Shown piece after piece: positions 20,295-34,058 of a DNA stretch of 42,268 bases. This stretch comes from Acidobacteria bacterium RIFCSPLOWO2_02_FULL_67_21 (GTDB lineage Bacteria > Acidobacteriota > Vicinamibacteria > Vicinamibacterales > UBA2999). The notes under the pieces were generated by a model. The model saw nothing but the letters and a program-made list of their open reading frames with translations, searched no databases and was not told the origin of the DNA. Both the position numbers and the translations under genes were made by a program. How positions within the stretch are numbered: position 1 is the first letter of the stretch; every line of letters begins with the position of its first letter. The DNA lies in assembly GCA_001767195.1 (NCBI GenBank), contig MEKU01000094.1, positions 90,712 through 132,979 on the forward strand, in the 5' to 3' direction.

Positions 20295-21686
20295 ATGTCC
20301 GAACGAAAAAAGACCGTCCTCATCGTCGACGATGACGAGGGGATGCGGGACACGCTGACCGTTCTGCTCAAAGCGCAGTACCGGATTCTGCGCGCCGCGA
20401 CCGGCGAAGCGGCCCTGCAGATGATGGAAAAGGAAGATGTCGACCTGATGCTGCTCGACGTCCGCCTGCCGGGCATCAGCGGATTCGAGGTCCTCAAGAT
20501 CGCGAAGGAGAACTATCCGTACGTCGAGGTGATCGTGATCTCGGTCATCAAGGAGCTGGATGCGGCGATCGAGGCCATGCGGCATGGCGCGTATCACTAC
20601 ATCTCCAAGGACTTCGACCTCGAAGGGCTTCGGACGCTCGTCGCGAACGCCAGCGAGCGGCAGGATCTCAACCGCCATGTGATGCGGCTCCGTGCCGAGG
20701 TGGCCGAACAGGTCGACCGCGAGTTCGTCGTCGGACCGAGCCGCGCGACCCGCGATGTCATCGAGATGGCCCGGAAGGTCGCCGGGCTGTCGGCCACCGT
20801 CCTGATCCTCGGCGAGAGCGGCACCGGCAAGGAGCTGCTCGCGCGCCTCATCCACCGCGAGTCGGGCGCGGCCGACGCGCCGTTTGTCGCCGTCAACCTG
20901 GCCGCCATTCCCAGGGATCTGGTGGAGAGCGCGCTGTTCGGGCACGAGAAGGGCTCGTTCACCGGCGCCATCCGCCAGCAGCTCGGGAAGTTCGAGCTGG
21001 CCGCCGGCGGCACGTTGTTTCTCGATGAGGTCGGGGACCTCCGCTACGAGCTGCAGGCGAAGCTGCTGCGCGCCATTCAGGAGGGCGAGATCGAACGGGT
21101 CGGCGGCACGCATCCGATCAAGACCGACTTCCGCCTGATTGCGGCCACCAACACTGACTTGGACAAGGCGGTCAAGGACGGCACCTTCCGCGAAGATCTG
21201 TACTACCGCCTGAACGTGATCCCGCTCCGGATGCCGGCGCTCCGCGACCGCATCGACGATGTACCCGAGCTGGCGCGGTTCTTCGTCGGGCGCTACAGCG
21301 TCAAGTTCCGCAAGAATATCCAGGGCATCGCCGACTCCACGCTGCAGATTCTGAGCAGCTACTGGTGGCCCGGCAACATCCGCGAGCTGGAGAACCTGAT
21401 CGAGCGGCTCGTGGCCGTGTCCGACCGCGACTGGATCTCGGATGAAGACCTGCCGTACGAGCTGCACGTCGCCCAGCTCGCTGCGCAGCCGTCCGGCGGC
21501 TCCGAGAACCTGCTGGAGCAGGCGGTCTCGACCTTCGAGCGCAACTTCGTCATCCGCGCACTCGAGAAGTCGGCATGGAACGTGACTGCAACCGCCCGTG
21601 CGCTCGGCATCCCGCTGAGCACCCTGAAGTTCAAGATGGATCGGCTTGAGATCCGGGAGCTCGCCCGCAAGATCCGCGGAAATTAG
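20295..21686 (+). CDS. NtrC-family sigma54-dependent response regulator
   Basis: 463 residues in the order receiver (1-125, phospho-acceptor Asp55 in [10 protein letters not shown]), AAA+ sigma54-activation domain (about 145-385) and a Fis-type helix-turn-helix (about 420-460, [17 protein letters not shown]). Walker A is GESGTGKE (173-180). The sigma54-contact loop is GSFTGA (220-225), a variant of GAFTGA. Walker B is LFLDEVGDL, and the arginine-finger region is present. It would activate sigma54 promoters when phosphorylated. It lies upstream of the radical SAM/peptide/kinase genes on the same strand and is the best candidate partner for the kinase at 25.2-27.0 kb. It is divergent from the E3 operon. 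Confidence 0.92.
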
Positions 21687-21790: not shown

Positions 21791-22125
21791 TGGAGTCGCT
21801 TGCCGTCAGTCAAGGAGTTGCAGCACGGGCCAAGAAGTTGGCCGCCACCCGATAGGCCTGTCTTGCCTCGCAACATCTTCCGGAACAAGGGGTAACAGCT
21901 ACACACAACCGCTGTAAGTGAGGGTCCCGGCAACCCCTTGGCCGGGCGCGCCGAGCGCCCGTATTGGCGAGCCGCCTGCCGATCGCGCGTATCCCTTCGC
22001 AAATTCTCGATGTCCGCTTCCGAATCCGTGCACACCCGCCGCGGCACATCCGTTGCCTAGCTGAACGAACAGCCGCAGGGAACGCCCGTCGTCCGGGTGC
22101 CCGCCTGCAGCAGCCCGGAGACCAC
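21791..22125 (+). other. leader region of the radical SAM gene
   Basis: About 335 bases without a gene. GC-rich hairpins occur around 21928-21965, such as CCCGGC with GCCGGG and GGGCGC with GCGCCC. A GG-N10-GC pair (21966-21967 and 21978-21979, within TTGGCGAGCCGCCTGCC) is compatible with a weak sigma54 promoter. GGAG before ATG 22126 is the ribosome-binding site. I recognise no known riboswitch. Confidence 0.35.
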
Positions 22126-23541: not shown

Positions 23542-23571
23542 CCATCGGCCACTCACCAGAAACGGAGTAGA

Positions 23572-23673
23572 ATGATGAAACTCACCGTTATCAAGAAGGC
23601 GACGACGACTCGGAAGCCGCAGAACTTTTGCCCGTGGATTGTGGAAGGTGGCTCACCTCAGGACAAGAGGTAA
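23572..23673 (+). CDS. putative RiPP precursor peptide
   Basis: 33 codons starting with two adjacent ATGs. GGAG at 23564-23567 is seven bases before the second (23575), the likelier start. The peptide has a basic N-terminal half (MKLTVIKKATTTRKPQN) and a C-terminal half with the only Cys and Trp (FCPWIVEGG, then SPQDKR). The split fits a leader and core for the adjacent radical SAM/SPASM enzyme: Cys20 or Trp22, with nearby Ile, Val or Phe, are plausible sites. It is not a family I recognise. No Gly-Gly cleavage site beyond GGS is seen, and no peptidase or exporter gene is adjacent. A terminator-like hairpin begins 44 bp after its stop, so it could be transcribed more than the genes downstream. 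Confidence 0.75.
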   Translation: MMKLTVIKKATTTRKPQNFCPWIVEGGSPQDKR

Positions 23674-25247
23674 GAAGTCCTGTCCGGGCTTCGACCCGGC
23701 AACTCTTTGCTTCGATACGCCGCACCACCCTGCAGGTCTGGTGCGGCGTCATTTTTTCCCTCGCCTCTTCCGCCTGCAATCCCTCTCCACAACGACAGAG
23801 TGAACCGTCTGCACTTACGATCGGATTTCCCGAAGGAGGTGTAGCTAGTGCTAGTCTCGGTCTTGGGCAACTGATCGCCGGGCTGACGCTCGAGGGGCTG
23901 ACGCAATCGTACATGAGCGTTGATGGACGCGCTGTCCCACGCCTGGCTGAGAAATGGACCTGGGAGAATAACGGCCGTCGTCTGCGCGTCGATCTGAGGC
24001 CGGGCGTCTCATTCCACGATGGAACACCTCTGACTGCGACAATTGCCGCCGAAGCGCTGAGCCGTGCCGTTGCGTTACCCGCAAACCGGGCGTTGTATCC
24101 GTCGGTGACCGACATAACTTCCATAAGCGCCGACGGAGCCTTGCAGCTGGTGGTCGAGTTGTCTAAGCCATCAGCGTTTCTTCCGGACGACCTGGATCTG
24201 CCGCTCAGCCTCGGTCCTGACGGCGTCGGCACCGGAGCGTTTCGGCTTACGCGAAGGGATTCTTCAGGCGCGGAACTGGAGCGCTTCGACCGGTACTACC
24301 TCGGTGTTCCGAAAATTGACCGCATCGTCGTCCTGGTGTCAGACAACCTGAGGACATCCTGGGCGCGGCTGCTCCGCGGCGAAGTTGACATGGTCACCGA
24401 TGTACCTCCGGAAGCGGTTGAGTTCATTCAGAACGATGACATTCAGGTGATTTCGTTCGCGCGAAGTTTTCAGTTTCTGATCGCTTTCAACGCGCGCGCA
24501 ACGTCCTTTCGATCGCCAGCGGTGCGACGTGCGCTCAACGCGGCTATCAACCGCGAGGCCTTAATCGCGAACGTGTTGCAGGGGCAGGGACATCCGGCGA
24601 CCGGACCGATCTGGCCGCAGCACTGGGCATACGACTCCTCCGTGCAACCGTTCGGATTCGATCCGCGCGGCGCGGTGTCGGCACTTGAGGCCGAGGGCTA
24701 TCAGCTTCAGCCCGGATCTGATGACGCCAACCGCCCGCCTGCGCGGCTGCGGTTCACCTGCCTGTTGCCTGCTGAATTCAGCCTCCTGGAACGCATAGGA
24801 TTGGAGGTTCAGAAGCAGCTGTACGACATTGGCGTCGATGTTCAGTTCGACCCGCTGCCGCCGGAGGAGTACAGCTTGCGGATCAGCGAAGGACGCTTCG
24901 AAGCCGTCTTGGTCGACATGATTAGCGGGCCCGCCCTCGCGCGCCCCCACATCTTCTGGGGCGCGCCGCGCCGCGAAGGGCTTCACGCTTTCGGGTACGC
25001 CAACGCAGAGGCGCTGCGGCTCTTCGAGCTCCTTGGCTCGTCCACGAATGAAGCGGCCACGCGATCCGCGGTCGGCCGGCTCCAGCGCGTGCTCCTCGAT
25101 GACCCCCCCGCGCTTTTTCTCGCCTGGAACGAGCGCGCACGAGCCGTACGGCGTCAATTCAACATTCCATCATCCGGTGGCGACCCCCTGTTCACAATTC
25201 CTCAATGGACCGAAAACACCGATAGACAGCCCGTTTCCACTCAGTGA
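23628..25247 (+). CDS. oligopeptide-binding (SBP family 5) lipoprotein
   Basis: The mature part (from about residue 55) is a periplasmic binding protein of the DppA/OppA type: LTIGFPEGG start, VSFHDGTPLTA near 125, GTGAFRL near 200, and FNARATSFRSPAVRRALNAAINREAL near 285. A hydrophobic stretch ending SSAC (Cys50) predicts lipid anchoring. The start is unsure: only TTG 23628 and GTG 23634 are available in frame. Both lie inside the precursor-peptide gene without a ribosome-binding site, giving an unusually long Arg-rich n-region. A terminator hairpin falls within the signal-peptide codons. No ABC permease or ATPase genes accompany it, so sensing rather than import is likely. Its stop overlaps the kinase start (GTGA). 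Codon use is visibly less GC-biased than in its neighbours. Confidence 0.8.
   Translation: MPVDCGRWLTSGQEVRSPVRASTRQLFASIRRTTLQVWCGVIFSLASSACNPSPQRQSEPSALTIGFPEGGVASASLGLGQLIAGLTLEGLTQSYMSVDGRAVPRLAEKWTWENNGRRLRVDLRPGVSFHDGTPLTATIAAEALSRAVALPANRALYPSVTDITSISADGALQLVVELSKPSAFLPDDLDLPLSLGPDGVGTGAFRLTRRDSSGAELERFDRYYLGVPKIDRIVVLVSDNLRTSWARLLRGEVDMVTDVPPEAVEFIQNDDIQVISFARSFQFLIAFNARATSFRSPAVRRALNAAINREALIANVLQGQGHPATGPIWPQHWAYDSSVQPFGFDPRGAVSALEAEGYQLQPGSDDANRPPARLRFTCLLPAEFSLLERIGLEVQKQLYDIGVDVQFDPLPPEEYSLRISEGRFEAVLVDMISGPALARPHIFWGAPRREGLHAFGYANAEALRLFELLGSSTNEAATRSAVGRLQRVLLDDPPALFLAWNERARAVRRQFNIPSSGGDPLFTIPQWTENTDRQPVSTQ
23717..23757 (+). terminator. intrinsic terminator / attenuator after the precursor gene
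   Basis: ACGCCGCACCA (23717-23727) pairs perfectly with TGGTGCGGCGT (23739-23749) around an 11-nt loop. CA and six T residues follow (23752-23757). This has all the parts of a Rho-independent terminator, placed 44 bp after the precursor stop and inside the signal-peptide codons of the binding-protein gene. A smaller hairpin (CCGGG/CCCGG, 23684-23699) precedes it. Confidence 0.75.
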
Positions 25248-26989
25248 CCCGCATTTCCACCCGTTTCGCGCTGCTGCTGGCCGCCGCGGCCGTCGTGCCG
25301 CTGCTCGGCTACGGTGCCGTCTCGATCTATTCCCTGCGGACGGGCGCCCAGCAGGCGGTGATCCTGGGCAACCTCAACGTCGCCCGCCAGGTGGCCGAGC
25401 AGATCGAGCTCTACGTGACCGGCAGCGTCAAGATCCTGAAGGCCGTCGCCGCCGACCTGCAGCAGACCGGCCTCCAGCAGTGGCAGAAAGACCGCATCCT
25501 CAAGAACTTCGTTCTCCAGTTTCCAGAGTTCAAGGAGCTGACCCTCGTCGACGACAACGGCATCCCGACGGTGTCCAGCCGTCTCGGCGCGCCGACGGTG
25601 AGCGTGCCGGGCTCCGAGGGTGTCGCTTTCGAGGGCGTGCTGATGTCGCGCTTCTCCGTTGACGACGACCTGCTGCCGACGTCGATCGTCGCCGTCAGGC
25701 TGCAGGATGAAGAAGGCGGATGGCTCGTGGGCCGGTTGAACCTCGAGGAGCTCTGGCGCATGGTCGATCGCATCCGCGTTGGCGATGCCGGCTACGCCCT
25801 CGTCGTCACGGGCGACGGGCAGCTGCTCGCCCACGGCAATCCGGCGGCGAAGTCGCGCGTCGCGCGCGGCGACAACCTGCGCACACATTCGCTCATGTCC
25901 GGAGGCGACGGCGCGGCACCGAGCGGGGAAACCGCCTTCGGTCAGTACTCGGACGAGCGGGGGCCGGTGCTGGGCGTTGCCGCGCGCCTGCCCTCGCTCG
26001 GCTGGACCGTCATCGTCGAGCAGCCGCGGTCCGAGGCGTTTGCGATTCCCATCTACCTGCAGTGGCAGCTCGGGATCGCCATCACCATCGCGCTGATGGT
26101 CATGCTCGGCGTCGGCTACGTCTTTGGCTACCGCTTCATCGATCCCATTCTCGCCCTGACGCGCGGCACCAGGGCGCTGGCGGAAGGCCGGCTCGATGAG
26201 CGGGTCGCCGTCGAGTCGAAGGACGAGATCGGCCAGCTCGGCGTCGCGTTCAACAACATGGCCGACCGGCTGGTGGAGCTGCAGGAGGACGTCCGGAAGA
26301 AGGAGCGGCAGGCGATGTTCGGGCGGATCTCGATCGGCCTGGTCCACGACCTCTCGCATCCGATTCAGAACATCGGCAACAGCTGCAAGCTGATCATCAA
26401 GATGTTCGACGATGTGGAATACCGCGAGACGTTCAAGCGCACGATCGAGCGCGAGCTGGCGCAGGTCAAGCGGGTGCTCGACGATCTCCGAAACGTCGCG
26501 CGTCCCATCCCGCTGCAGATGTTCCCGATCGACACCAACAAGGGGCTGGCCGACCTTGTCGAGTCGATGCAGACAACCGCCGAGACCGCCGGCCTGCGGA
26601 TCGAGCAGGAGCTCGTTCTCGGGCCGCTGTACATCGACGCCGACCTGTACGCGCTCAATCGCGTCTACCGCAATCTGATCACGAACTCACTGCAGGCGAC
26701 GCCGCCGAGCGGAAGCGTCGTGGTCCGCAGCACGCGCGACGGCAGCCACGCGGTGATCGAAGTGGCGGATACGGGGTACGGCATCCCGAAGGAGCGCCTC
26801 GAGACGATCTTCGAGGACTTTGTCACCACCAAACGCCGCGGTCTCGGCCTCGGTCTGGCCATCTCGAAGAAGATCGTGGAGCAGCTCGGCGGAACGATCT
26901 CGGTGCAGAGCGAGGTGGGCGTCGGCACGACGTTCACCCTGCGGTTCCCGCTCACGAAGGCCCGCCCCCAGCGGCTCGAAGCCGTCTAG
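25244..26989 (+). CDS. cache/HAMP sensor histidine kinase
   Basis: 581 residues. Transmembrane helix 1 is near 8-28, an extracytoplasmic cache-type region spans about 29-270, and helix 2 is near 276-298. A HAMP domain (about 300-352) and a HisKA-type helix with His368 in LVHDLSHPIQNI follow. The HATPase has NLITNSLQATP, DTGYGIP and RRGLGLGLAISKKI. There is no receiver, so it needs an external regulator; the NtrC-type protein at 20.3-21.7 kb is the obvious candidate. GTG 25244 overlaps the binding-protein stop (GTGA). That coupling suggests the lipoprotein delivers a ligand, possibly the modified peptide, to the sensor domain; this is inference. A bidirectional hairpin follows. Confidence 0.9.
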   Translation: MTRISTRFALLLAAAAVVPLLGYGAVSIYSLRTGAQQAVILGNLNVARQVAEQIELYVTGSVKILKAVAADLQQTGLQQWQKDRILKNFVLQFPEFKELTLVDDNGIPTVSSRLGAPTVSVPGSEGVAFEGVLMSRFSVDDDLLPTSIVAVRLQDEEGGWLVGRLNLEELWRMVDRIRVGDAGYALVVTGDGQLLAHGNPAAKSRVARGDNLRTHSLMSGGDGAAPSGETAFGQYSDERGPVLGVAARLPSLGWTVIVEQPRSEAFAIPIYLQWQLGIAITIALMVMLGVGYVFGYRFIDPILALTRGTRALAEGRLDERVAVESKDEIGQLGVAFNNMADRLVELQEDVRKKERQAMFGRISIGLVHDLSHPIQNIGNSCKLIIKMFDDVEYRETFKRTIERELAQVKRVLDDLRNVARPIPLQMFPIDTNKGLADLVESMQTTAETAGLRIEQELVLGPLYIDADLYALNRVYRNLITNSLQATPPSGSVVVRSTRDGSHAVIEVADTGYGIPKERLETIFEDFVTTKRRGLGLGLAISKKIVEQLGGTISVQSEVGVGTTFTLRFPLTKARPQRLEAV

Positions 26990-28369: not shown

Positions 28370-30775
28370 GTGAACCTCCGGCGCGGCGACGTGCTTGGCG
28401 TGCGTGACGAGCGATGGCGGGTCGTCCGGCATCGCATCGACGGCGGCATCACCACCGTCGATGCGGTCGGCTGCAGCGCGGCCAACCGCACGGCGACGGC
28501 CCGATTTCTCTTGCCGTTCGAACCCGTTCGCCGCTTCAGCGCGGCGCCACGACCGCGCCTCGTCCGCACGGCACGATGGCGGCACTCGGCGCGCCGGCTG
28601 CTGGCCGACGCACAGCCCTCCTGGGCGTCCCTCACCGCGGCCACTCGCGCGGATCTGGATCTCATTCCGTTTCAGCTCGAGCCGACGCTCGCCCTTCTGA
28701 ACGGCCACGGCTGCCGCTTCCTGATTGCCGATGCCGTGGGGCTCGGCAAGACCGTTGAAGCAGGGCTCATGATTGCCGAAACCCTGTCGCGCAACGCGGC
28801 CGCCAGAGCGCTCGTGATCTGTCCGGCCGGACTGCGGGAACAGTGGTGCGGCGAGCTCATCCACCGCTTTGGACTGGGCCCGGTCGTCTTCGACGCGTAC
28901 GGCGTCGCCCACGCCGCCGCCCGGCTGCCTCCCGACGTCAACCCGTGGGCGCTCCAGCCGCTCGTGATCACGTCGATCGACTTCGTCAAGCGCCCCGAGG
29001 TCGTCCGCGCGCTCGAACGGCTCACCTGGGACATCGTCGTGCTCGACGAAGCGCACAACCTCGCTGGCCGGTCGGACCGTGCGGCGGCCGCGGGGATGCT
29101 CGGCCGGCGCGCACGCGTCGTGGTCATGCTGACCGCGACGCCTCATTCAGGCGACGACCGCGCATTCGATCGCCTGTGCGATCTGGGCCGCCTGACGGCC
29201 AGCGAACCGCTCGTGGCGTTCCGTCGGACGAGGTCGGACGCCGGGGTGGCGCGCCCGGTTCGTGGCCGACTGCTCCGCGTGCGCACGACGGCGGCCGAGG
29301 CCGCCATGCACGAGGCGCTGCTTGCCTACACCCGGCAGGTCTGGGCCGGTTCAAGCGGAGCGCGCCCCGGAGCACGGCTCGTGGCGTCGCTGCTGGCCCG
29401 GCGCGCATGCAGCAGCCCCGACTCGCTCGCCCGATCGATTACCAGGCGGCTGGCGATGCTTGCGACAACAGAGAGCGTCGCCGCGCAGCCGGCGCTGCCT
29501 TTTGGTCCCCCGGACACTGGCGACGAGGAACCGTCTGCGGTGCTGGGAACGCCTGGCCTGACGCACGTCGCCGACGAACGGCGCCTTCTCGAACGTCTGC
29601 TCCACCTGGCCCAGGCGGCGGCCGCCGCGGAAAGCAAGATTGCGGCGCTCCGGCGGTTCCTGCGCCGAACGCGCGAGCCCGCCATCGTGTTCACCGAATA
29701 CCGCGACACGCTGAACCGGCTGGCGCAGGCGCTCGGCGGCATGGATGCGGTCGAGCTCCACGGCGGGCTGACGGCGCGAGAGCGGGCTGACGCGCTGCGC
29801 CGGTTCAACGACGGCCGGGCGCGGCTGCTGCTGGCGACCGACGCCGGCAGCGAGGGGCTGAACCTGCACCACCGCTGCCGGCTGGTGATCAATCTGGAGC
29901 TTCCGTGGACTCCGCTTCGGCTGGAGCAGCGCGCGGGGCGGGTCGATCGGCTCGGGCAGAGGCGGCGCGTTCACGTCATTCATCTCGTCGCAGCCGGCAC
30001 GTGCGAGCACTCGGTGCTGGCGCGTCTCGTCAGCCGGATCAGCCGCCTTCGCGGGTCGATGGGCCTTCTCGCCCGTCTCCCCGATGAACAACACGTGGCC
30101 TCCTCAGTGTTCGATGCTGCGCCGCTGCCGGATCCCGGCGCGCCTGCCGCGGTCGCTCCACACGTTGTCACGGTCGACGTCAGGCGCCAGGCCGAAACCG
30201 AAGCGCGGCGCATTCAGATCGCCCGCGCACTGCGGAATGCCGAAAGGCATCCCGGTTCCGACGACCGGCCGGCGATCGCCCGTATCCGTCGGCGGCGCGG
30301 CCGAACCGGCCCGCCGCAGTGCGTGTGGGCATTCAGGGCGCATTTCACCGGCGCTCACGGCCGTCTTCTGTGGCAGACGCTGATCCCGCTCGTGGCGGCG
30401 CTTCGAGGCGGACACGAGCCGGCAGCCGTGCGGGCGCTGCTCGATCCCGACCAACCGGTGGTGCAGCGCGCCATCTCACGTGCGTGCGCCCTGTCTCTGC
30501 GCGGCCTGCGGGCAGAGCTTCGACGCCCCCTGGCCTGCTGGCGCGCCCGCGAAGGCGCCCTGGTGACGGCGCTTCAAGCCGACCACGGGCGTCTTGCCGC
30601 CTGCCTGCTGCAGGGCGGGCTCTTCACCCGCTCGAACGAGCGCATCGCAGCCGCACAATCACGTCAGCTCGAGGACGCGCTGCGGCGGTCGCGCGCGCGT
30701 CTCGCCGAGCTCGCCGACAGCGCCGACCCTCGCGTCGACTCGTTCGACCTGGGCTTCGGCGCCCTCATGGAGTGA
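28370..30775 (+). CDS. SNF2-family helicase/translocase (DrmD-like)
   Basis: 801 residues. A small N-terminal domain (1-100) precedes the ATPase: Walker A DAVGLGKTVEAG (Lys127), LVICPAGLREQW, DEAH from Asp226, and LTATPHSGDD. Helicase domain 2 has VFTEYRDTL, TDAGSEGLNL and QRAGRVDRLGQRR. The layout is that of RapA/HepA and DISARM DrmD-type SNF2 translocases, though it is shorter than typical DrmD. A C-terminal helical region (about 600-801) follows. All ATPase motifs are intact. GTG 28370 is the start. The methyltransferase gene begins one base after the stop, so the pair is one transcription and translation unit. A defence role is inferred from that pairing. Confidence 0.9.
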   Translation: MNLRRGDVLGVRDERWRVVRHRIDGGITTVDAVGCSAANRTATARFLLPFEPVRRFSAAPRPRLVRTARWRHSARRLLADAQPSWASLTAATRADLDLIPFQLEPTLALLNGHGCRFLIADAVGLGKTVEAGLMIAETLSRNAAARALVICPAGLREQWCGELIHRFGLGPVVFDAYGVAHAAARLPPDVNPWALQPLVITSIDFVKRPEVVRALERLTWDIVVLDEAHNLAGRSDRAAAAGMLGRRARVVVMLTATPHSGDDRAFDRLCDLGRLTASEPLVAFRRTRSDAGVARPVRGRLLRVRTTAAEAAMHEALLAYTRQVWAGSSGARPGARLVASLLARRACSSPDSLARSITRRLAMLATTESVAAQPALPFGPPDTGDEEPSAVLGTPGLTHVADERRLLERLLHLAQAAAAAESKIAALRRFLRRTREPAIVFTEYRDTLNRLAQALGGMDAVELHGGLTARERADALRRFNDGRARLLLATDAGSEGLNLHHRCRLVINLELPWTPLRLEQRAGRVDRLGQRRRVHVIHLVAAGTCEHSVLARLVSRISRLRGSMGLLARLPDEQHVASSVFDAAPLPDPGAPAAVAPHVVTVDVRRQAETEARRIQIARALRNAERHPGSDDRPAIARIRRRRGRTGPPQCVWAFRAHFTGAHGRLLWQTLIPLVAALRGGHEPAAVRALLDPDQPVVQRAISRACALSLRGLRAELRRPLACWRAREGALVTALQADHGRLAACLLQGGLFTRSNERIAAAQSRQLEDALRRSRARLAELADSADPRVDSFDLGFGALME

Positions 30776-30776
30776 C

Positions 30777-33700
30777 ATGATCGCCGGCGTTCGAGGACGA
30801 CTGCTGACCTCGAGCTTCATCGAGCGCCGCCTGAACGAACTGCCTGGGGCGGCAGCGCCGCCGCCACAGGTCGTGCGGGCCCTGGACGTCTGGTCGGAGC
30901 GCAGACATGCGACGCTGGGGCCGGCCTCGAGCATTCGCGCGATCGGTGAGATCGCGGTGATTCCGCTGCTGAAGCTTCTGGGGTTCGACATCCGGCGCCG
31001 GATCGACGAGGCCGATCGCACGATCGTGCACGCGGCGGCTGCGGCGGACGTTGTTCCGGTCGTCATCCTCCAGTGGAACGCGCCGCTCGACGCGGCCTGG
31101 CGGGGCGCGATTCTCGATGGCATCCGCGCTGACGCGCGCTGGTGCCTCTGCTGCAACGGCGCCTCCCTGCGGCTGGTCGACGCGCATCACACGTGGACGC
31201 GCCAGCACCTCGAGTTCGACCTGACGCTGCTGCCGTATGCAGACGATGTGCGGACGCTGTTCTGGACGACGGTTCGCGCGGACGCCTTCGCCGGCCGCCC
31301 GTCGCTCCTGGAGCGCGCGGTCGCGCTCTCGGCGAGGTACGGCGCCGAAGTCTGCCGGGCGCTCGGCAGCGGCGTGCTCGAAGCGCTCGACACGCTGTTC
31401 GGAGCGGTCGCGCAGCGCGAGCCGTCCCGATCGCCCCGGGCCCTGTTCGAGCAGTCGCTGACGGTGCTCTACCGCGTGCTGTTTCTTCTGTTCGCAGAGG
31501 CGCGCGGGCTTGTTCCGGTGTGGCATCCCATTTACCGGGAGCGCTACACGATCGAAGGCATCGTCACCACGCTGCTCGCCGGAGGCCGCTACTCCGGGAT
31601 CTGGGAGGCGGTGCTGGCGATCTCCCGGCTCGCGCATGCCGGGTGCCACACCGGAGAGCTGCAGGTCACGGCCTTCAACGGCCGCCTGTTCTCCCCGGCT
31701 CAGTCGAGCGCGTTCGACCGTACGCGGATCGGCGACCGGATCATGGGCCAGGCGGTTCTTGCGCTGGGCAGCACACCGGCTGCCGGAAGCCGCACCCGTA
31801 TTTCGTACGGCGATCTCGACGTGGAACAGCTCGGCGCCGTGTACGAGCGTGTGCTCGAGTACGAACCGGCAGGCACGGACGCAGAATCGAAGCGGGCCGC
31901 GGCAGGGGCCAGTCTGGTCCGCAACCGCGACAACCGCCAGTCGAGCGGCACGTTCTATACCCCTCGCCTCCTGACGGCGTTTCTCGTCCGTCACACGCTG
32001 GAGCCGCTGGTCGCCGGTCGAAGCGCCGACGACATCCTCGAGCTGCGGGTACTCGACCCGGCCATGGGCAGCGGCGCGTTTCTCGTTGCGGCATGCCGGT
32101 ATCTCGCGGCGGCGGCCGAGGCCAGCCTGGTCCGCGACGGCCGCTGGCATTCCGGCGATGTGACGGACGGGGACCGAACGGCGCTCCGCCGCGACATCGC
32201 GATGCGCTGCCTCTTCGGCGTCGACGTGAATCCGATGGCCGTGCAGCTTGCCCGGCTGTCGCTCTGGCTTGGAACGCTGGCGTCCGATCGCCCGCTCACG
32301 TTCCTCGATCACCATCTCGTGGCGGGCGACAGCCTCATTGGCGCCACCCTCGACGACCTCGTCCGGCAGCCGACTCGAACGCGGGAGCCGCGGCGCCGGG
32401 CGGCTCCCACTCCGCTCTACGACAGCCTGGACGCGACACCCGCGCTCGAACAGGCCGTGCGCACGCGGTTGGCGCTCGCGCGGCAACCGGACGAATCCGC
32501 GGCCATCGTGGCCGGGAAGGGAAGGACGATCGAGGCGCTTCACGCGCCGGAATCGCCGCTCGGACGATGGTCGAGCGTGCTCGATCTCTGGTGCGCCGGC
32601 TGGTTCTGGGAGGCGGCCACCCCGCTCACTGCAGGCGTGTTCGGCGAGTTGCGCGACCGCCTGCTCGGGCGCGGCGGCTCACTGCCGGCACGCGTCGCCG
32701 AGCCGCTGCTGGAGCACTCGAGAGCGGCGGCGGCCCGCCACAGTTTCCTTCACTGGCCGCTTGCGTTTCCAGAGGTCTTCTCCGACGAGGAAGGGGCGCG
32801 ACTCGCCTCTCCGGGATTCGATGCCGTCATCGGCAATCCTCCGTGGGACATGGTCCGCGGAGACAGCGGAGACGAGACCGTGCGCGCCGGACGGAGGCTG
32901 ACGGCGCACCAGTTCACCGGCTTCGTGCGCGAGGCCGGCGTCTATCGCCTCGACGCCCGCTCGCATCTCAATCGCTACCAGTTGTTCGTGGAACGGGCGC
33001 TCCAGCTCGTGAAGAAGGGAGGACGGATCGGGCTCGTCCTGCCCTCCGGGGTGCTGGCCGACGCAGGCGCGGCCGCGCTGCGGCGCCACCTGTTCGACCG
33101 GGCCAGGATCGATTCGATCACCGGACTGGACAACCGGCGCCGCTTCTTTCCGATCCACCGCAGCCTCCGCTTCGCCGTGCTGACGTGCACCGCGGGGCAG
33201 CCGACCGATACGGTCGCGTGCCGTTTTGGCGTGACACGGGGCGAGGATCTCGAACGCGACGCACGCCCGCTGCTGATCTCGCGCCCGCTGCTGTCGCGGA
33301 TATCAGGTCCGGACGATCTGGGCATTCCTGAGCTTGCCACCGAGCACGACCTCCGCATCGTCGAAGCCACGAGCGGCAGCATCCCGTGCGCCGGCGCCCC
33401 GGAGGGATGGGGCCTCGAGTTCGGGCGGGAGCTCAATGCCACCGACGATCGCGGCCTGTTCAGGCCGTTCCGCGGCCGCGGCGATGTGCGGCCCGTTCTG
33501 GAAGGCAAACAGATTCAGCCCTTCCGGTCCGAGGTCAACGCCTGCCGGTACGAAGTCGCTGCCGGATCGGCGCCCCACATCCCCAGGCGCGCCCGGGTCG
33601 CGTACCGGGACGTCGCCAGCGCCACGAACCGCCTCACGCTGATTGCCGCCGTCGTTCCCGCGCGCGTGGTGACCACCCACACGCTCTTCTGCCTGAAGTC

Positions 33701-34058
33701 GACGCTCTCTGCGGACGCGCAGCAGGTCGTCTGCGCGCTCCTGAACAGCTTCGTCGCCAACTACCTGATCCGGCTGCGCGTCAACACCCATGTCACCACG
33801 GCCCTGGTCTCGCGGCTGCCACTGCCTTTCCTCGATGCGCGGCATCCATGGTTCGCCAGGATCGCCCGGCTGGCGCGCGCGCTGATGCGCGGCCGTGAGC
33901 CTGTCGACGACATGACGGAGTATCCGGAGCTGCAGGCGATCGTGGCGCACCTGTACGCGATCGGCAGCGCCGACTTCGAGCACATCCTGGGCACCTTCCC
34001 GCTGATTCCGGTCGCGGTGAAGGAAACAGCGCTTCGCCGGCTCTCTGCACTCCGCTGA
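30777..34058 (+). CDS. large N6-adenine-type DNA methyltransferase (DrmMI/Eco57I-like)
   Basis: 1093 residues. The SAM-dependent core starts with GTFYTP (391) and motif I DPAMGSGAFLVAA (Asp427). GVDVNPMAVQLARLSLWL follows, and the catalytic motif IV is NPPW (Asn687), the gamma-class N6A pattern. A C-terminal target-recognition-like region follows. The first 250 residues have the layout of a PD-(D/E)XK-type domain (LLKLLGFDI, VVILQWNAPLD, LCCNGASLRLVD), but the expected catalytic Glu-x-Lys is not evident, so cleavage by this protein is doubtful. It is coupled to the SNF2 gene upstream. Class 1 DISARM pairs these same protein types with drmA, drmB and drmC, none of which is nearby. A longer frame into the helicase gene was rejected. 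Confidence 0.9.
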   Translation: MIAGVRGRLLTSSFIERRLNELPGAAAPPPQVVRALDVWSERRHATLGPASSIRAIGEIAVIPLLKLLGFDIRRRIDEADRTIVHAAAAADVVPVVILQWNAPLDAAWRGAILDGIRADARWCLCCNGASLRLVDAHHTWTRQHLEFDLTLLPYADDVRTLFWTTVRADAFAGRPSLLERAVALSARYGAEVCRALGSGVLEALDTLFGAVAQREPSRSPRALFEQSLTVLYRVLFLLFAEARGLVPVWHPIYRERYTIEGIVTTLLAGGRYSGIWEAVLAISRLAHAGCHTGELQVTAFNGRLFSPAQSSAFDRTRIGDRIMGQAVLALGSTPAAGSRTRISYGDLDVEQLGAVYERVLEYEPAGTDAESKRAAAGASLVRNRDNRQSSGTFYTPRLLTAFLVRHTLEPLVAGRSADDILELRVLDPAMGSGAFLVAACRYLAAAAEASLVRDGRWHSGDVTDGDRTALRRDIAMRCLFGVDVNPMAVQLARLSLWLGTLASDRPLTFLDHHLVAGDSLIGATLDDLVRQPTRTREPRRRAAPTPLYDSLDATPALEQAVRTRLALARQPDESAAIVAGKGRTIEALHAPESPLGRWSSVLDLWCAGWFWEAATPLTAGVFGELRDRLLGRGGSLPARVAEPLLEHSRAAAARHSFLHWPLAFPEVFSDEEGARLASPGFDAVIGNPPWDMVRGDSGDETVRAGRRLTAHQFTGFVREAGVYRLDARSHLNRYQLFVERALQLVKKGGRIGLVLPSGVLADAGAAALRRHLFDRARIDSITGLDNRRRFFPIHRSLRFAVLTCTAGQPTDTVACRFGVTRGEDLERDARPLLISRPLLSRISGPDDLGIPELATEHDLRIVEATSGSIPCAGAPEGWGLEFGRELNATDDRGLFRPFRGRGDVRPVLEGKQIQPFRSEVNACRYEVAAGSAPHIPRRARVAYRDVASATNRLTLIAAVVPARVVTTHTLFCLKSTLSADAQQVVCALLNSFVANYLIRLRVNTHVTTALVSRLPLPFLDARHPWFARIARLARALMRGREPVDDMTEYPELQAIVAHLYAIGSADFEHILGTFPLIPVAVKETALRRLSALR

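Follow-up and report, generated by a model that had tools for sequence, protein, structure and literature searches.

A short conserved gene beside a radical SAM/SPASM maturase points to a possible, previously undescribed signalling system based on a modified peptide in one order of uncultured acidobacteria

Between the genes of a radical SAM/SPASM maturase and a solute-binding lipoprotein, the 42,268-nucleotide stretch of acidobacterial DNA analysed here (the window, which belongs to a 4.19-Mb genome) contains an open reading frame of only 33 codons (MMKLTVIKKATTTRKPQNFCPWIVEGGSPQDKR, positions 23572-23673). We asked whether this frame is a gene, whether it encodes a RiPP precursor, as a sequence-only reading had proposed, and what its product might do. 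The features on which that proposal relied were recovered: the frame starts 30 bp past the maturase stop, it is preceded by its own GGAG site, its N-terminal half is basic and leader-like, and its only Cys and only Trp lie in the C-terminal half.

Orthologous maturases (53-83% identical) were gathered and the DNA downstream of each was inspected for peptide genes. A peptide of the same kind was found wherever the downstream sequence sufficed, with the exception of two loci (L073 and L126), and 67 distinct Cys-bearing peptides were collected from 59 loci. Comparison of the window gene with its three nearest relatives gave pN values of 0.08-0.14 and pS values of 0.57-0.62, and across 14 near sequences pN/pS was 0.38; by these measures the gene is under purifying selection. 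A maturase-lipoprotein interval that was not conserved as protein had been named in advance as the finding that would count against a precursor; conservation at the amino-acid level was found instead. Judged from these alignments, the small gene is real and conserved, and far from a product of chance. Since the relatives keep the GGAG site with a spacing of 7 nt to the ATG, translation in the window probably starts at the second ATG (23575), giving a product of 32 aa. No second copy of the gene was found in its own genome. The positions of all features are collected in Table 1.

Table 1. Position and description of the features around the peptide gene, in window coordinates
Feature	Position	Strand	Remarks
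Sigma-54-dependent response regulator (receiver, AAA+, Fis-type HTH)	20298..21686	+	retained in cassette-less relatives too
Palindrome GGGCCAAGAAGTTGGCCG	21827..21844	.	probable (predicted) regulator binding site; like sites in 22/40 loci
Second, imperfect palindrome	21927..21944	.	100 bp beyond the first
Sigma-54-type -24/-12 promoter (predicted) CGGCACATCCGTTGCC	22042..22057	+	conserved 5' of most maturase orthologues
Radical SAM/SPASM peptide maturase, 471 aa	22126..23541	+	N-terminal RRE-like domain, residues 1-85
GGAG ribosome-binding site of the peptide gene	23564..23567	+	spacing kept in relatives
RiPP precursor peptide gene (predicted)	frame opens 23572, conserved start 23575, to 23673	+	leader MKLTVIKK..., core with Cys-X4-Glu
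Family-5 (peptide/nickel type) solute-binding lipoprotein, PF00496	23634..25247	+	probable GTG start in the CPW codons of the peptide gene
Hairpin with T-run, terminator or attenuator within the lipoprotein frame	23717..23759	+	-22 kcal/mol
Histidine kinase, dCache sensor domain and HAMP	25244..26989	+	

The leader of the peptides follows the consensus M-K-I-x-V-I/V-K-K (a KIxVIKK signature), and the mean net charge is about +4 N-terminal of the Cys, with a slightly acidic tail. Invariance of the FCPW stretch, the check proposed with the sequence-only reading, did not survive the alignment: the Cys is present in 67/67 peptides, but the Pro at +1 in only 53 and the Trp at +2 in 42, this position being occupied by Phe in 12 others. 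An aliphatic residue is found at +4 in 60 of the 67 peptides and an acid (Asp/Glu) at +5 in 62. The five peptides without the +5 acid all belong to one family (f4), and all five have a Glu at +9. Most peptides (63/67) contain one Cys only. On this alignment the motif of the peptide is C-X4-[D/E] and not FCPW. A three-residue cyclophane at the Trp was also considered and appears unlikely, Trp being absent from +2 in 25 of the 67 peptides.

Several loci depart from the single-copy arrangement. Tandem copies of the peptide gene, two to four in number, occur in several of them; L120 carries four near-identical Cys peptide genes 162 bp apart (143, 305, 467 and 629 past the maturase stop). In ten loci (L048, L079, L084, L085, L116, L117, L119, L122, L128 and L139) a second, Cys-less peptide gene lies between the maturase and lipoprotein genes, mostly directly 3' of the maturase, and its core, R/H/T/S-PWLVDV, aligns with the Cys peptide at the Pro-Trp pair and at the Asp. 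The peptide frame of L126 (genome G477) is interrupted by two in-frame stops next to an open maturase frame, by decay or by assembly error, and in L073 (genome G027) the peptide core is deleted while the start, the terminator hairpin and the maturase are retained.

The CX3CX2C motif of the radical-SAM core and the canonical SPASM Cys pattern are kept in 38 orthologues of the maturase, and its match to the SPASM model TIGR04085 (52.7 bits for a cut-off of 27) places it among SPASM maturases. In an AF2 model (pLDDT 77), the N-terminal domain consists of three strands and three helices, a topology that we read as RiPP recognition element-like. The best solved structural match of the model was thioether-forming CteB (5why), over almost the full length of the maturase, followed by TigE, both RiPP maturases. 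An additional set of Cys (C315...C330-x2-C333), likewise kept in the 38 orthologues, was observed between the radical-SAM core and the SPASM domain, in a low-confidence region of the model. A short conserved gene with a basic leader and a Cys core is thus found next to a peptide-modifying enzyme, and it almost certainly encodes the RiPP precursor for this enzyme, as first proposed from the sequence. The retention of the maturase beside a damaged peptide gene in L073 and L126 counts against the overall explanation given below. The peptide exceeded the cut-off of no model tested and fell into no named RiPP family.

The maturase likewise scored under the cut-off of every peptide-maturase family model tested. 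The nearest of these sub-cut-off models were those of the geopeptide, C-rich, CefB, FlmE/OhkG, Clo7bot, PapB, QHNDH and SCIFF maturases, among which PapB, QHNDH and SCIFF are thioether enzymes, and the nearest named maturase records came nearly all from uncultured Acidobacteria. The best-scoring NCBIfam model, geopeptide maturase TIGR04280, was matched by all 38 orthologues, a likeness at the level of maturase model scores; the score was 251.4 bits for a cut-off of 400, and no protein of the genome exceeded this cut-off. SCIFF maturases share with the window enzyme the fold of CteB, which has an N-terminal leader-binding domain, but SCIFF precursors have six Cys and a different gene neighbourhood, and the SCIFF model TIGR03974 gave 85.5 bits (cut-off 425). 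The PapA/PapB ranthipeptides also combine a SPASM maturase with a Cys followed at short spacing by Asp/Glu, PapB linking the Cys to the acid and tolerating 0-6 intervening residues (PMC9413430). Unlike the Cys-X3-Asp/Glu motifs of PapA, the peptides described here have one Cys each and an X4 spacing, the cross-link is a prediction, and the PapB model NF047865 gave 119.9 bits (cut-off 340). By analogy with such enzymes, a thioether cross-link between the Cys and an Asp/Glu is the likeliest chemistry, with odds slightly in its favour. What fits this chemistry least well is family f4, which lacks the +5 acid, and the existence of the Cys-less paralogues; since the latter share the PWLVD core, conservation of the Asp need not mean a link to Cys.

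Wherever contigs reach, the gene order is constant: response regulator, maturase, peptide, lipoprotein, histidine kinase. Among 99 relatives, the maturase was found in 39 genomes and an orthologue of the kinase in 42, every mismatch falling at contig ends, and the response regulator in 68. In 15 of 16 loci with a regulator but no cassette, HU directly follows the regulator. Because the maturase and the kinase co-occur and the empty sites show regulator and HU side by side, the maturase, peptide, lipoprotein and kinase genes behave, in this comparison, as a single unit, either present or missing as a whole between the regulator and HU; the regulator itself is more widespread. The pairing of peptide and maturase put forward in the sequence-only reading is constant, but the functional unit is larger, with four genes instead of two, and adjoins the sigma-54 regulator. 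The divergences of the regulator, maturase, lipoprotein and kinase correlate at 0.84-0.94, as expected from common descent at one site. Within the order, 66 of 162 genomes carry the maturase; among 396 evenly sampled genomes of the phylum, an orthologue (E <= 1e-40) was found in 19, all from this same order, and no cassette was found outside it in this sample. No permease, exporter or peptidase was found in the cassette, and no description of it in the open-access literature, subscription journals and preprints being outside the scope of this search. One genome contains two maturase loci on separate contigs (G013:C198 and G013:C97; L068 and L062), each with its own regulator, which may reflect duplication or mixed strains. 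Elsewhere in the window (28370-34058), two genes whose identities are guessed from sequence, one helicase-like and one DNA-methyltransferase-like, lie side by side, as they do in many relatives at the corresponding site; they may form a defence or repair pair.

The clearest conserved block between the regulator and the maturase in the near clade is a site of the -24/-12 type, YGGyAC-N4/5-GTTGCT. A lone match of this kind in the window would not by itself be significant (21 of 100 shuffles contain one). Palindromes of the form CGGCCAA-N4-TTGGCCG, often paired about 100 bp apart, precede the -24/-12 site in 22 of 40 loci vs 1-10% of shuffles. The locus thus displays the features of a sigma-54 two-component operon: receiver and sigma-54 activator domains, a -24/-12 promoter and upstream sites. 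As the gene of a sigma-54 activator adjoins the -24/-12 site and the palindromes, the cassette is likely controlled by this regulator. The palindrome recurs in perfect form only once more in the genome (G000:C3:102630-102647; L109, L115), about 40 bp 5' of an operon for a family-5 binding protein and a two-permease ABC transporter, which may be a member of the same regulon or a chance occurrence.

The sequence-only reading had also given the peptide gene a terminator of its own. A hairpin with a T-run is present and conserved in the near clade, but it overlies the signal-peptide codons of the lipoprotein, within the open frame of the latter, and does not simply belong to the peptide. The lipoprotein frame overlaps the peptide gene (23634-23673 in the window); in the near clade and in f4 it is always +2 relative to the peptide gene, and in nearly all of these loci candidate NTG starts 5' of the signal peptide are found within the peptide gene, in or close to the TGY-CCN-TGG codons. 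This arrangement suggests coupled translation of peptide and lipoprotein with an internal attenuator. Overlap and hairpin are absent from most other families that retain the peptide.

In fold, the lipoprotein model (pLDDT 91) comes nearest to AppA, NikZ/NikA, DppA and AapF, a binder of signal molecules. The lipoprotein gene lies beside that of a dCache kinase, which suggests sensing rather than uptake. A role of the mature peptide as a signal is our leading inference, with a probability of roughly 0.45. The basic leader would probably be bound by the RRE-like domain of the maturase, which would most likely join the Cys to the +5 acid (in f4, to the Glu at +9) and so close a small thioether ring. 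Once mature, the peptide would be released and exported and would most likely act as an extracytoplasmic signal, captured by the family-5 lipoprotein. The latter would work with the dCache kinase, which would phosphorylate the adjacent regulator, and the regulator, through the palindromes and the -24/-12 promoter, would increase expression of the operon that encodes the peptide. As the regulator is also found without the cassette, it has other duties, and its pairing with the kinase is one that we infer. Taken as a whole up to the signalling role, the exact cross-link being left open, this chain appears slightly less probable than the role alone. Its most specific form, a peptide autoinducer whose ring is closed by a radical SAM enzyme and which acts, without AgrB, through a binding protein and a dCache kinase on a sigma-54 activator in one acidobacterial order, is clearly more tentative.

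Divergence data bear on the signalling role as well. With the divergence of the regulator taken into account, that of the peptide core correlates at 0.39 with the lipoprotein, 0.31 with the kinase and 0.25 with the maturase, and the first value exceeded the last in 96% of subsamples, label permutation leaving shared ancestry in; this gives weak support to a signal. Specific tracking of the maturase by the leader, seen with 29 loci, was set aside as it was not robust with 42. Against a signal stands the lack of an exporter or a peptidase in the cassette. A signal of this sort would have a precedent, since clostridial quorum sensing is reported to involve SCIFF-type ranthipeptides (Chen 2020, as cited in PMC8102284). 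The proposed logic also resembles two known systems. In LuxPQ, as here, the gene of the binding protein adjoins that of a dCache-type kinase; unlike LuxP, the lipoprotein belongs to the peptide/nickel family 5, its proposed ligand is a RiPP and its contact with the kinase is a proposal. In agr (AgrBDCA), a modifying enzyme, a short Cys peptide, a kinase and a regulator follow one another in the same order of logic, and the ring Cys plus four residues come before an acidic residue. The cassette differs from agr by its basic leader, its radical-SAM enzyme, the added binding protein and the sigma-54 regulator. No match to AgrB (PF04647) was found in the genome, and the AgrD model did not detect the window peptide, one peptide of a relative reaching 18.7 for a cut-off of 19. 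By this comparison the cassette is not a member of agr, although it may work like it.

The same RiPP could instead serve as a metallophore or scavenging peptide, in which case the lipoprotein would capture it, free or complexed with metal, for import by a permease whose gene lies elsewhere, and the kinase would sense occupancy of the binding protein or shortage. The fold of the lipoprotein, near NikZ/NikA, fits this explanation, as do a free Cys able to bind metal, weak sub-threshold matches to methanobactin models, and the location of the other perfect palindrome ahead of a binding protein and permease operon. We nevertheless hold it to be unlikely: the peptide has a single Cys and no other conserved metal ligands, none of the cassettes includes a permease, and no sigma-54 site was seen after the second palindrome copy, which could be there by chance. 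That many SPASM RiPPs are antimicrobial, together with the patchy presence of the cassette in the order, would agree with an antimicrobial or toxin, for which the binding protein and the kinase would be sensing or immunity parts. Such a function is rather improbable for a cassette without exporter, peptidase or immunity gene that always occupies the same chromosomal site and shows no sign of mobility.

PQQ and mycofactocin are also made from a short precursor with the help of a SPASM enzyme, and the peptide could likewise become a small redox cofactor for an enzyme encoded elsewhere. The cassette contains neither a second biosynthetic enzyme nor a client dehydrogenase, and neither pathway includes a binding protein or a sensor kinase, so that we give this explanation very little weight. 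In f4 and in the near clade, the lipoprotein frame shares sequence with the peptide gene, where it likely starts, and in the near clade a terminator-like hairpin lies in between; this raises the further question of whether the peptide frame acts only on the lipoprotein, as a regulatory leader peptide or as a coupler of translation, and is not a RiPP precursor. This is hardly credible given that the protein sequence is conserved along its length, leader included, that overlap and hairpin are missing in most other peptide-bearing families, that the gene is repeated in tandem in several loci, and that it is constantly linked to a RiPP-type maturase.

A peptide signal thus remains our preferred reading, in a system whose key gene is so short that routine gene calling would miss it. 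The 67 peptide variants, the family without the +5 acid, the Cys-less paralogues and the close relatives with empty sites provide a natural test set for it. Signalling is little understood in Acidobacteria, which are abundant and difficult to culture. Our results suggest that one order of these uncultured bacteria signals by means of a modified peptide in a way not described before; if this is true, a radical SAM enzyme would close the ring of the signal, and the cell would sense it by way of a binding protein and a kinase.
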